Assembly (NCBI RefSeq): GCF_020099395.1
Contig: NZ_CP083590.1
Span: forward strand, 5,394,001-5,458,000
Length of the DNA stretch: 64,000 nt
Direction of reading: 5' to 3'
DNA from: Streptomyces mobaraensis
GTDB taxonomy: Bacteria > Actinomycetota > Actinomycetes > Streptomycetales > Streptomycetaceae
The translations under genes and the position numbers were made by a program. Positions 45,979-49,743 of the stretch are shown in pieces (within the stretch, counting starts at the first letter, position 1; each line of letters starts with the position of its first letter). The notes beneath the pieces are model-generated. The model had not been told where the DNA came from and searched no databases. It was given only the letters and a program-made list of their open reading frames with translations.

Positions 45979-47376
45979 GTGTTCGCGCGAATAAGCAGCA
46001 GAGACAAGCTCGCCGCGTGGCGGCAACCACGGGTGATCCTGTGGACCGTGGCGGGCGCGGTGACGCTCGCGTTCTTCATCGTGCTGGAGATCGTCGCGCG
46101 CCGTGTCGGCGGCGAGCCGGGCCCGCTGGTCACCCAGGCGAAGGAGCTCGTCTTCCCGCCCAAGCCGGGCCCGCTGTACGCCGGCCTGGCGCTGATGATG
46201 GTGGTCCTCACCTGGCGGCAACGGCTCATCGCGGCGGCCTGGGCGGTCGGCATCGACCTCGTCTTCGTGCTGGGGCGGTGGGCGGCCGACGTCAAGGTGA
46301 CCGACGGCCGCTACTTCGGCAACGGCGCGCTGTGGGTGATGCTGGGCACCGCGGTCATCGCGCTCACACGCCGCACCGGCCGGGAACGCACCCTGCTGCT
46401 CAAGGGCGTCGGACTGGGCCTGCTGCTGGTGGCCGGCCGCAAGGTCGGCGACTCCTGGCTGATGATCACGTGGAAGACCCGCCCGAAGGTGCTCGACCAG
46501 TACGTGGCGACCGCCGACCACGCCCTCGGCAACCCGTCGTGGGCGGCGGGCCGCATCCTCAAGGCCACCGAGCCGATCGGCCCGCACGTCCTCGACCTGG
46601 TCTACGCGCACCTCGCGGTGGCCGCGATCGTCTTCGCGCTGTACCAGCTCCGCAACGTGGCCGCCGAGCGCCGCTTCCCGCAGCACCACCTGATCCGCAC
46701 CTTCCTGGTGATCGGCCTCCTCGGACCGGGCATCTACATGCTCTTCCCGGTCGTCGGCCCGGTCTTCGCCTACGGCCCGGGCGCCTCCGGCACCGGCGGC
46801 GTGGAATGGGCGACGGCCAACATCTGGCCGCACACCCCGCCGGCGATCGGCATCCCGCACCCCTTCACGTACGACGACCTCACCCCGCGCAACTGCATGC
46901 CCAGCCTGCACACGGCCTGGGCCACCGCGATCTTCATCCACTCCCGCAAGGGCCCCCGCTGGGTGCGGTACGGCGGCGCGTTCTGGCTGGCCGCCACCAT
47001 CAGCGCCACCCTGGGCTTCGGCTACCACTACGGCTCGGACGTCATCGCCGGCGTGGTCTTCGCCCTCACCATCGAGGCGGCCATGCGCCTCTACGACCGC
47101 GGCCCCGACCGCTCGGGCATCCTCCTGATCGCCTACGGCACCACAGTCTTCACCGCGTTCCTCCTGGCCTACCGCTTCCTCCCGGTGGAGATGGCCGAAA
47201 ACCCCTGGCTCTTCGGCCCCCTCCTCATCCTGGCCACCCTCTCGGTCATCTACGGCTACCTCCGCACCACCAGACAGTGGGACGCGAACCCCCTCATCCC
47301 CCTCCCGGACCCAAAACCCGCCACGGAACCCCAGCGCGCAGAACCCCAGCCCGCACCGGCGCCAGAACCGGTCTGA
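45979..47376 (+). CDS. PAP2/Aur1-type inositolphosphotransferase-like membrane protein
   Basis: 465 residues with about ten helices. The PAP2 C-terminal motifs are MPSLHTAWATAIF and GYHYGSDVIAGVVFA, typical of Aur1/Ipt1-like proteins. A proline-rich tail (DPKPATEPQRAEPQPAPAPE) is cytoplasmic or extracellular. The start is GTG 45979, with no SD upstream; TATAGT at 45966-45971 would place the transcription start at or next to the GTG, so the mRNA is probably leaderless. Function: transfer or hydrolysis of a lipid-linked phosphate (inference). It ends at a strong terminator at 47401. Confidence 0.88.
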   Translation: MFARISSRDKLAAWRQPRVILWTVAGAVTLAFFIVLEIVARRVGGEPGPLVTQAKELVFPPKPGPLYAGLALMMVVLTWRQRLIAAAWAVGIDLVFVLGRWAADVKVTDGRYFGNGALWVMLGTAVIALTRRTGRERTLLLKGVGLGLLLVAGRKVGDSWLMITWKTRPKVLDQYVATADHALGNPSWAAGRILKATEPIGPHVLDLVYAHLAVAAIVFALYQLRNVAAERRFPQHHLIRTFLVIGLLGPGIYMLFPVVGPVFAYGPGASGTGGVEWATANIWPHTPPAIGIPHPFTYDDLTPRNCMPSLHTAWATAIFIHSRKGPRWVRYGGAFWLAATISATLGFGYHYGSDVIAGVVFALTIEAAMRLYDRGPDRSGILLIAYGTTVFTAFLLAYRFLPVEMAENPWLFGPLLILATLSVIYGYLRTTRQWDANPLIPLPDPKPATEPQRAEPQPAPAPEPV

Positions 47377-47400
47377 CTGTCCCGCACCCACCGCACACAC

Positions 47401-47440
47401 GGCGAGGGCCGCTCCCCGACTACGGGAAGCGGCCCTCGCC
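47401..47440 (+). terminator. Terminator, left border of the accessory cassette
   Basis: GGCGAGGGCCGCT pairs with AGCGGCCCTCGCC around a loop containing CCCCGACTACGGGA. It closely resembles the terminator at 49654-49690; together the two flank the lower-GC cassette. Confidence 0.85.
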
Positions 47441-47576
47441 GCGCGCTCAGAGCGCTGCCTCGCTCCCTAGAGGTTGAGGCGGCAGAGCCTTTTGACCAGT
47501 GGAATTACGCTTCCCTGCCTGGCTCGGCGCACTCCAGCGCACATGGTGTGCCGTCGGCAGGAGCCGAGCCCTGAGC

Positions 47577-48713
47577 TCATGCGTCCGTCCCCAGGGAGCG
47601 GTCCGGCCCGAAGTGACTGACCTCCATGGTGGCGATGCCGCCTGGCGGGCTCGCAAGCACGCCCTGCGCTCTCACCGGAGTACCCGTGTCGTGACAGCGC
47701 ACTGCTAGGTGGTAGGGCTCATCTGCAAGATCGAACCATACGGTCCTCCGGCGGCGTTTGATCAACGTCTCGATGCCCACGCGGCCAGTCGCCTCATCAG
47801 GGCGCCGGCTGAGGTCGGTGATGACTCCGTAAAGCACGTGCTCATGCGTGTAGAGCTGGGATTTCAGCCTGTTGGAGACTTCATCGACGATCTCGATGGC
47901 ATCGCGGTTGAACTCCACGCGGTTGGACGATCCCGGGGGAGGCGAGGCAACCCGGGACCAATTGAACGTGATGTCCAACGCGGCGACCGATTCGGCGTTG
48001 ACGACCTTGCTGAGGGCTCGGCAAAGCTCGTACGAGACCCCCTCACCGACCGAGTCCGCGATCTCGCTACCCGTGGGACGGCGTTCCGAGCTCGCCATTT
48101 GTTCCAACACGCCAAGCGCCCGGGACATGGTCGCCGTCACGCGCCTGTCGAAGAGGGTTTCCTCGATCTCGATGTCGATGTGTTCCTGCTGAGGCACGTA
48201 GACGTCCTCTGGGGACCTGGCCTGACTAATGATCGGCACGATGTAGGAACCGCGGCGAGTCTGTCCCAGCCGGACCTCGCGGGCCTGGTCCTTGGCGCGC
48301 AACGGGAAGTTGCGGAAGTGCCCCTGACGGCGAATCGAGGCAGCGGCAGAGGCCACGCGAAGCCGCTTGGCGGACATGAACAGCTCGTACCCTGCTTCCA
48401 GGGGGATGGAGCCATCGCTGAGGGAAGGGTGGGAAGCCCTGAGGTCGGTGACGTCGTGGTAGACGGTGGCGATTGCATCGTGCACAGTGCGTACATCGCG
48501 GGATTCGAGCCGGGAGACGTCACTGAGAAGAATGTTGGTGCGCTTCGCGAAGTCGGGGGCTCCCGGCTTCATCGGGACCAGGACGACCTTGTCCTCACAG
48601 TCTCGGAAGCGCCACAGTTCGGCCAGTTCACTACCTGAGACGGGGGACCAGCCGGACACTTTGAGGTAACTCCGGATCTCTCCGGGGCCGAAGTCGGGCT
48701 TCACTTGCACCAT
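47577..48713 (-). CDS. Unknown 378-aa protein, partner of DUF4365 gene
   Basis: Unrecognised cytoplasmic protein. The N-terminus (about 8-60: EIRSYLKVSGWSPVSGSELA, ELWRFRDCEDKVVLVPMKPG) and the stretch RTNILLSDVSRLESRDVRTV resemble a domain I have seen in actinobacterial hypotheticals but cannot name. The middle is mixed (SYIVPIISQARSPEDVYVPQ) and the C-terminal third contains RRRRTVWFDLADEPYHLAVR, which looks beta-rich. No signal peptide or helix is present. ATG 48713 follows the DUF4365 stop by one base, so the two are translationally coupled. GC is clearly below the flanking core genes. A role as sensor or effector partner of the nuclease-like protein is inference. Confidence 0.8.
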   Translation of the reverse strand: MVQVKPDFGPGEIRSYLKVSGWSPVSGSELAELWRFRDCEDKVVLVPMKPGAPDFAKRTNILLSDVSRLESRDVRTVHDAIATVYHDVTDLRASHPSLSDGSIPLEAGYELFMSAKRLRVASAAASIRRQGHFRNFPLRAKDQAREVRLGQTRRGSYIVPIISQARSPEDVYVPQQEHIDIEIEETLFDRRVTATMSRALGVLEQMASSERRPTGSEIADSVGEGVSYELCRALSKVVNAESVAALDITFNWSRVASPPPGSSNRVEFNRDAIEIVDEVSNRLKSQLYTHEHVLYGVITDLSRRPDEATGRVGIETLIKRRRRTVWFDLADEPYHLAVRCHDTGTPVRAQGVLASPPGGIATMEVSHFGPDRSLGTDA

Positions 48714-48714
48714 G

Positions 48715-49218
48715 TCAGTTCACCCCCCAGCTGCCGACGCCGGTCATACGGCGCGCCGCATCGAACATGGTGCTCATGGCGCTCACGGTGAGCAGCTGGT
48801 GCTCGGGGAGGTGAATCGCTGTCGTGACGCTGCTGTTCGCCGCTTTCTGACCTTGAAGTGATGCCCAGTAGCCGTGGCAGGCCAAGACGATCGAGTCCGG
48901 CTGGTGGGTCACCCACCTGTCGATGTCCGGTGGGACGATCAATAAGGCGAGGTGGCCGGGCGCTGAGCGGTCGGGTGCTCGCAACTTGTCGTACGTCTCG
49001 ATGTCCAGGTCGAAGCTGAATCCGCCACGAACGGAGCGTGGCTTCTGAGTGCACTTCAGTTGGATGTCGACCATCAATCCGCCTGAACGGAGAGTGATAT
49101 CGACTCCGTCCTTGTCCACATTCCAGTCACAGATCGTGTAACCGCCCTGTGTGGCAAGGGCATGCACGTAAGCGCGACTGACCTGCTCCTTCTGCCAGCT
49201 TGTCGCCTCCGCTGTCAC
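48715..49218 (-). CDS. DUF4365 domain protein (PD-(D/E)XK-like nuclease fold)
   Basis: 167 residues from GTG 49218, which has an excellent GGAGGGG five bases upstream. Domain start SWQKEQVSRAYVHALATQGG is followed by the putative active site WNVDKDGVDITLRSGG and VDIQLKCTQ, a D-x(n)-QxK pattern (Asp40, Gln53, Lys55) of restriction-endonuclease-like folds. Then come FSFDLDIETYDKLRAPDRSA and LIVPPDIDRWV. DUF4365 proteins occur often in mobile and defence islands (family recollection). A longer version from ATG 49326 (AGGGGGG ten bases before) is possible. First gene of a two-gene operon in a low-GC cassette. Confidence 0.82.
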   Translation of the reverse strand: MTAEATSWQKEQVSRAYVHALATQGGYTICDWNVDKDGVDITLRSGGLMVDIQLKCTQKPRSVRGGFSFDLDIETYDKLRAPDRSAPGHLALLIVPPDIDRWVTHQPDSIVLACHGYWASLQGQKAANSSVTTAIHLPEHQLLTVSAMSTMFDAARRMTGVGSWGVN

Positions 49219-49653
49219 CCGATCCCCTCCCCGTCGAGTGATCGTGAGGATAGTCCTGTGAGGATCACCGGGGAATAGGGCTCGTGTGACCTTGCGACAG
49301 ACGATGTTGTGGTTGAGGTCGCGCATGCGTTACATCCCCCCTTGAATCGAACAAGCGATCCATTGCCTCTAGGGATACCAGAAGGCTCTGACATCGGGTG
49401 CTGTGCCCATCGCGAACACCGAGTGCTGATCGGGCCGCAGCGACGAGTTGTACGAGGCGGGCGTGCGACAAGCATGGTCCTCGGGCGGGGGTAGCCCCGA
49501 TGTCGTCGTCGCCCCGGTCGGCCTTCACCTTGCAGTACCGACATCGGCGGCAGCCCACCGATGAGACCTCGCCGAACAGGGCCTGCTCGACGAAAGGCCT
49601 GCTCGACCCGTGCCGCCCCGGGCGGGAAGCCGGCCGCTGTACCGATAACCGGC
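49219..49653. other. Upstream region of the DUF4365 cassette
   Basis: About 430 bp. An imperfect inverted repeat at 49237-49267 (GTGATCGTGAGGA, centre TAGT, CCTGTGAGGATCAC) lies 19 bp upstream of the DUF4365 start and may be an operator or promoter element. A minus-strand frame from GTG 49558 starts with a CxxCxxC-like sequence (GCRRCRYCKVKADRGDDD), but overlaps the cassette promoter and is not clearly a gene. Nothing else was recognised. Confidence 0.4.
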
Positions 49654-49690
49654 CGAGGGCCGCTACCCGGCTATCGGGTAGCGGCCCTCG
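49654..49690 (-). terminator. Terminator after glnA, right border of the cassette
   Basis: CGAGGGCCGCTACCCG pairs perfectly with CGGGTAGCGGCCCTCG over a five-base loop (GCTAT), about 54 bp downstream of the glnA stop. Confidence 0.9.
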
Positions 49691-49743
49691 CAGTGGCCTT
49701 GCGCCAAGAAAAGGGCCGGGCGGTGCGCGCCCGGCCCCGCCTC

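Follow-up and report, generated by a model that had tools for sequence, protein, structure and literature searches.

The PAP2-glnA locus

Between a PAP2-type gene and glnA of Streptomyces mobaraensis, within the analysed stretch of 64,000 nucleotides (NZ_CP083590.1, positions 5,394,001 to 5,458,000; hereafter the window), lie two minus-strand genes, termed here A and B and spaced 1 bp apart (Table 1). Both match the phage defence candidate PDC-M02 of PADLOC-DB 2.0.0 over their full length, adjacent and in the same order. The interval that they occupy has a GC content of 0.634, compared with 0.729 for the whole window, and among approximately 618 sliding windows of its size the only one equally low in GC overlaps the interval itself. 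The reading frames and the base composition thus confirm the low-GC two-gene unit with a 1-bp gap and PAP2 and glnA flanks that a preliminary description of this DNA had reported. The copies of relatives are also GC-poor (0.59-0.68 in seven loci), so that low GC is a trait of the family rather than the mark of a recent donor. The open reading frame list gives A 203 aa (48715-49326, minus strand). The most likely start is the GTG at 49218, which yields 167 aa, because this is where the PADLOC model starts (residue 37 of the 203-aa frame), because the stretch GGGGAGGGGA precedes it, and because DNA similarity reaches only ~34-63 bp further in 13 of 15 relatives; similarity to L074 ends exactly at this codon, and L065 lacks A.

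Table 1. Features of the locus (window coordinates)
Feature	Position	Strand	Remarks
PAP2-type flanking gene	45979..47376	+	name taken from the preliminary description
Hairpin terminator 3′ of PAP2	47400..47441	+	native to PAP2; same place in G075
Gene B, 378 aa, PDC-M02B	47577..48713	-	HicA-like N-terminal part, unassigned middle part, SSB-like OB fold (286-378), as predicted
Gene A, 167 aa, DUF4365/DREN nuclease domain	48715..49218	-	frame open to 49326
Promoter-like element TATTCC-N19-TATCCT, upstream of A	49247..49277	-	putative function
Hairpin terminator 3′ of glnA	49654..49690	-	native to glnA; same place in G075
glnA flanking gene, 469 aa	49744..51153	-	from the open reading frame list

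With z values of -8.5 and -6.1 the two tabulated hairpins are strong, and they resemble each other (76% over 33 bases, 94% over 17). The preliminary description had regarded them as near-identical terminators that arose when an ancestral terminator was duplicated on insertion, and while the likeness stands, the duplication is contradicted by the nearest relative at this site (G075, PAP2 94% identical). There both hairpins are present (~93% and 90% alike) and enclose an unrelated gene for a 224-aa bPH_3/SHOCT protein (L034:614-1288); the hairpins therefore belong to the neighbouring genes, and the slot between them is variable. A strict pattern search located a GAGGGCC...GGCCCTC hairpin 3′ of glnA in 4 of 20 other Streptomyces regions. 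Another terminator-like hairpin with a T-rich tail (49712-49738) lies directly 3′ of glnA, inside the tabulated one.

Relatives of PAP2 are encoded by 55 of 120 other Streptomyces genomes (E 1e-40), and glnA is matched in 40 of 41 genomes (E 1e-200). Among 29 PAP2 loci of other genomes, examined with ~1.5 kb of flank, glnA was seen in G075 only and A or B in none. Neither gene was found in 20 regions downstream of glnA (E 1e-8; ~5 kb each, except L104 with 4,394 and L107 with 666 bases), and PAP2 or glnA was found near none of 32 B-encoding loci. Comparison of the interval across Streptomyces, as the preliminary description had proposed, thus places A+B there in no general way, and the PAP2-glnA site as a common slot for the pair was not seen.

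Gene A encodes a predicted DREN nuclease domain

Gene A matches Pfam PF14280 (DUF4365) with 50.1 bits, against a cut-off of 24.3, and the PDC-M02A model PDLC04286 at E 2.2e-101 over 167 of 167 model positions; both matches take in the DUF4365 domain only. The AlphaFold model of A (pLDDT 90.8, from 19 sequences) predicts a helix at 7-25, strands at 28-35, 38-45 and 48-57, a helix at 73-80 and a strand at 88-94, a core that, compared by secondary structure order, carries D on strand 2 and QxK on strand 3 of an abbbab arrangement. Residues D35, G38, D40, Q53, and K55 are invariant in all 26 aligned sequences, distant ones included. An earlier survey assigned DUF4365 to the PD-(D/E)XK nucleases, as part of their Mrr subfamily (PMC6299218). 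The D...QxK nuclease pattern that had been noticed from the letters of the DNA is therefore upheld by the PF14280 match, the predicted core, and the invariance of Asp40 and Lys55, and A is a DUF4365/DREN nuclease domain with a predicted PD-(D/E)XK-like core.

A well-studied nuclease of this domain family is that of SPARDA systems (short Argonaute with DREN/DUF4365-APAZ). The DREN domain of NbaSPARDA reportedly adopts an abbbab fold with D41 on strand 2 and Q60 and K62 on strand 3, shows undetectable activity by itself, and becomes active on forming tetramers in a filament (PMC12205087). These residues correspond to D40, Q53, and K55 of A, located on the same strands, and in TmuRE-Ago the Q62A/K64A substitutions reportedly inactivated TmuRE (PMC10810196). 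Judged by its residues and predicted fold, A may work like the SPARDA nuclease. The pair itself is not SPARDA, since A consists of the nuclease domain alone, its 167 aa leaving no room for APAZ, and no Argonaute gene adjoins it, its neighbours being the PAP2-type gene, glnA, and B, a partner of another kind.

The partner protein B

B matches the PDC-M02B model PDLC04311 at E 9.8e-167, and the best 25 of its 37 PADLOC matches are all to PDC-M02B. No Pfam family matches B, neither A nor B has an NCBIfam match, PHROGs matches are to unnamed families only, and neither A and B nor their profiles retrieved a weighty match from the sequences of solved structures. The AlphaFold model (pLDDT 89.0, pTM 0.87) aligns in its N-terminal part with the HicA-like TTHA1913 (1whz) and at residues 286-378 with an SSB/PriB-like OB fold (4dam, S. 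coelicolor SSB; 16% identity), in both cases with middling Z, and no Argonaute-type structure occurs among the 50 matches listed. B differs from HicA toxins and TTHA1913 in having no Pfam HicA match, in lacking a conserved His such as those toxins have (in 48 aligned B sequences no invariant or near-invariant column is a His), and in being six times the length of a 60-aa HicA. Its OB part likewise differs from SSB/PriB folds, with its low identity, no Pfam SSB match, and a position fused behind two other parts. The 378-aa protein is indeed as hard to classify as had been noted at the outset, Pfam being empty for it and only PDC-M02B and, tentatively, the HicA-like and OB-like parts giving it an affiliation.

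A portable unit and its leader element

DNA similarity to 15 related loci starts at 47582-47689 and stops at 49218-49281, and the match to L065 is confined to B, reaching 48720. Similarity stops at the edges of the pair, and the portable unit therefore comprises the two genes and a short leader. This leader contains a TATTCC-N19-TATCCT-type element (pattern T[A/G]TTCC, 17-21 bases, TAT[C/T]CT), which the window shares with 13 of 32 related loci, in each case ahead of A; the spacer of these 13 measures 19 bases in ten and 20 in three. L147 and L068 are taken to be the same contig and count double here, as L078 and G044 C111 (L022, L191) are taken to be the same contigs. L063, L065, L074, and the more remote loci gave no match to the element, and nor did 539,478 control bases. 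Its second block, TATCCT, resembles the Streptomyces -10 box (TAnnnT), and the element may act as a promoter.

A adjoins B in 28 of 29 B-encoding loci, 28 of which came from a scan of species genomes and one from a scan of viral contigs; the exception is L065. Both genes give dN/dS values of 0.08-0.24 against seven relatives, at synonymous sites near saturation, which indicates that the pair is under purifying selection. Single copies occur in Nonomuraea, Actinomadura, Micromonospora, Nocardioides, Microbacterium, and others, and relatives of B (identity <60%) are found in fourteen plasmid records and in two Mycobacterium prophage records of equal length. In the six plasmid and prophage records that were read, the gene tables of the plasmid ones being incomplete, the annotation of two, L120 (a conjugative plasmid) and L123, shows a DUF4365 gene ahead of B; in the prophage, the gene preceding B matches PDC-M02A. 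The pair forms the first two genes, at one end of the record, in the Mycobacterium prophage prophi102-2 (L119:398-2160). When 42 loci were compared, 22 had fewer than two nearest called neighbours in common with any other, as counted by a gene caller that misses genes and in some loci even the A-B pair. These contexts support the view that A and B are probably a laterally mobile unit.

The presence of copies on plasmids, the 1-bp spacing of two small genes, and the HicA-like fold in B would also suit a toxin-antitoxin or plasmid-maintenance pair, in which A would be a toxic nuclease and B its antidote. This reading is improbable, given the absence of the conserved His of HicA toxins in B and the occurrence, on draft contigs, of B without A (L065), B with A in pieces (L083), and an A frame with a shortened B (L087). 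At 378 aa, moreover, B is unusually large for an antidote.

A sister pair upstream of thrS

The window's genome contains a second, divergent pair with intact nuclease residues directly upstream of thrS (L021:1657-3455; C1 ~6,238,156-6,239,954), termed here A2 and B2, which is matched by the PADLOC models PDLC04276 and PDLC04317. B2 is matched in 165 of 199 Streptomyces genomes (E 1e-20), the weakest of which could be other family members. In 17 of 17 sampled B2 hits the gene order is exonuclease-A2-B2-thrS, with the pair 101-224 bp before thrS and the exonuclease of the RNase_T type. An earlier set of ten loci included one of another kind (L014); all of the remaining nine have thrS next to B2, and eight have A2, which L011 lacks. 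This brings thrS adjacency to 26 of 26 loci checked. Of 26 A2 sequences, 25 keep the nuclease pattern intact, and the other, L016, was not resolved by the pattern. Of the 34 genomes with no B2 match, 17 were followed, and all have thrS with no B2 within ~1.5 kb (two contigs end sooner); the thrS-linked pair is therefore dispensable. One of these 17 (L166) retains a 26-residue A2-like stretch, as after loss. The thrS-linked pair looks vertically kept. Its copies might be a resident form of this defence, or they might process nucleic acids for the cell.

The latter possibility can be extended to the whole family, as a cellular DNA-processing or repair pair of a structure-specific nuclease and an ssDNA-binding partner, of which the window's copy would be a laterally acquired extra version. 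The wide distribution of B2, the constant order beside an RNase_T-type exonuclease, the intact A2 pattern, and the SSB-like fold in B speak for such a role, whereas the dispensability of the thrS-linked pair and the patchy, mobile occurrence of the window's type, at times beside DISARM, speak against it. We consider it unlikely for the family as a whole, and a housekeeping role is a serious contender, most of all for the thrS-linked copy.

Defence neighbours of the pair

At E 1e-20, 127 neighbour proteins from 23 contexts hit 62 PADLOC models and 140 genes from 20 random Streptomyces regions hit 16, a rough contrast because the models overlap, and one that takes in generic families. The set covered 127 of 187 called neighbours, leaving out L023-L032, L123, and one long L078 protein; large neighbours were scanned afterwards, other than those of L023, L024, L027, L028, L029, and L032. 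These large neighbours were hand-picked, and the three DISARM contacts that emerged are therefore a count found and not an unbiased rate. In Actinospica (L078/L191, G044) DrmD lies beside the pair and an integrase on the opposite side; in G015 (L026/L190) DrmD, GmrSD, and UvrD lie near it; and in G029 (L025/L189) the pair sits between an adjoining DrmA and DrmD (C14:38008-41178). DrmD occurs in 26 of 199 Streptomyces genomes, and on a rough estimate chance would give ~0.01 such contacts across the 32 or so contexts on chromosomes. Since defence genes cluster in any case, the contacts show an address and not a common function. The G015 pair has, on its side opposite DrmD, a two-domain GmrSD restriction gene and a UvrD-type helicase gene; a related helicase gene adjoins the pair in L191. 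The viral-contig copy has a type IIG restriction-methylation gene upstream, and one plasmid copy adjoins type I-E cas genes. For many copies, that of the window among them, no neighbour is recognised as a defence gene.

The pair itself includes no drm gene. An accessory module that works only together with a DISARM-type defence would account for the position beside DrmD or DrmA in three genomes, and for the placement between the two in G029, but DrmD has no match in the genome of the window, and many contexts of the pair hold no recognised DISARM genes, both of which make this role highly improbable. The link of DUF4365 to mobile and defence islands, from which the preliminary description had argued, holds for the plasmid, prophage, and DISARM copies; the widespread thrS-linked pair shows that family membership alone is no sign of a mobile defence island.

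A candidate sensor-nuclease module

PDC entries are described as uncharacterised phage defence candidates (PMC12482510). In a literature search covering papers other than preprints, the names PDC-M02 and PDC-M02A had no match, no paper combining DISARM, drmD, and Streptomyces was found, and the work linking DUF4365 to defence concerned mostly Argonaute systems. The system is accordingly undescribed insofar as no paper naming it was found, as the preliminary description had surmised, but PADLOC-DB already lists both genes, and the two proteins show no sequence difference that would set them apart from PDC-M02, an uncharacterised entry that the thrS-linked pair matches too. The pair A+B is thus a real, functional-looking pair of a catalogued but uncharacterised kind; the novelty is below what was first claimed, and the pair gains interest from its thrS-linked sister and its contacts with DISARM.

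We lean, with slightly better than even confidence, towards A and B being a self-contained, horizontally spreading two-gene immune module of type PDC-M02, made up of a sensor and a nuclease. B would bind nucleic acid through its predicted OB fold and HicA/dsRBD-like domain and may so sense an invading element, perhaps the single-stranded DNA of a phage or plasmid. A would be silent until B, on sensing, lets it assemble, and might then cut DNA, locally or indiscriminately; this course is proposed from SPARDA, in which the same domain shows no activity by itself and cuts once its partners have assembled.

The observations behind this reading are the gene pairing, the conserved catalytic residues, the purifying selection, the varied contexts, the common upstream element, and the location at DISARM genes in three genomes; from these we infer that A and B may form a physical complex, recognise a target, act as a nuclease, and confer protection. 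The mobile copies resemble an immune module of sensor plus nuclease, and the predicted folds of A and B would fit one, while the many copies with no defence neighbour, the widespread thrS sister, and the middling Z of the B fold count against it.

More tentatively, and on balance doubtfully, PDC-M02 could represent an Argonaute-free form of DREN immunity in which an SSB-/HicA-like sensor, rather than an RNA guide, triggers a collateral nuclease, an ancestor having been domesticated beside thrS as a standing guard while mobile versions are still spreading. The sensor-nuclease proposal provides a concrete and testable mechanism for a candidate defence family that is catalogued yet undescribed, and links this family to SPARDA, whose nuclease is well studied; the thrS-linked pair poses the directly testable question of standing immunity versus housekeeping. 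PDC-M02 models match this widespread Streptomyces locus, and counts of "defence systems" based on PDC-M02 therefore need care.

Divergent forms of the pair

Six genomes of another genus of the order, with weaker matches, were read, and in all six A is followed, at the same place (L183:3940-5330; L184-L188), by a short B of 270-275 aa, in which the profile match stops before the OB part, which seems to be missing; the loci have a common context, with an MFS neighbour identified by Pfam in L183. In a phylum-wide sample, 6 of 198 genomes matched (E 1e-15), all of the same genus, even though single copies occur in the genera named above. In two divergent copies (L030:3472-7148 and L031:7185-10951), two further genes follow the pair, one of ~190-200 aa without any PADLOC match and one of ~1,040 aa that resembles HerA/mad8 (E ~1e-19), and these copies may possibly be a four-gene version of the pair.
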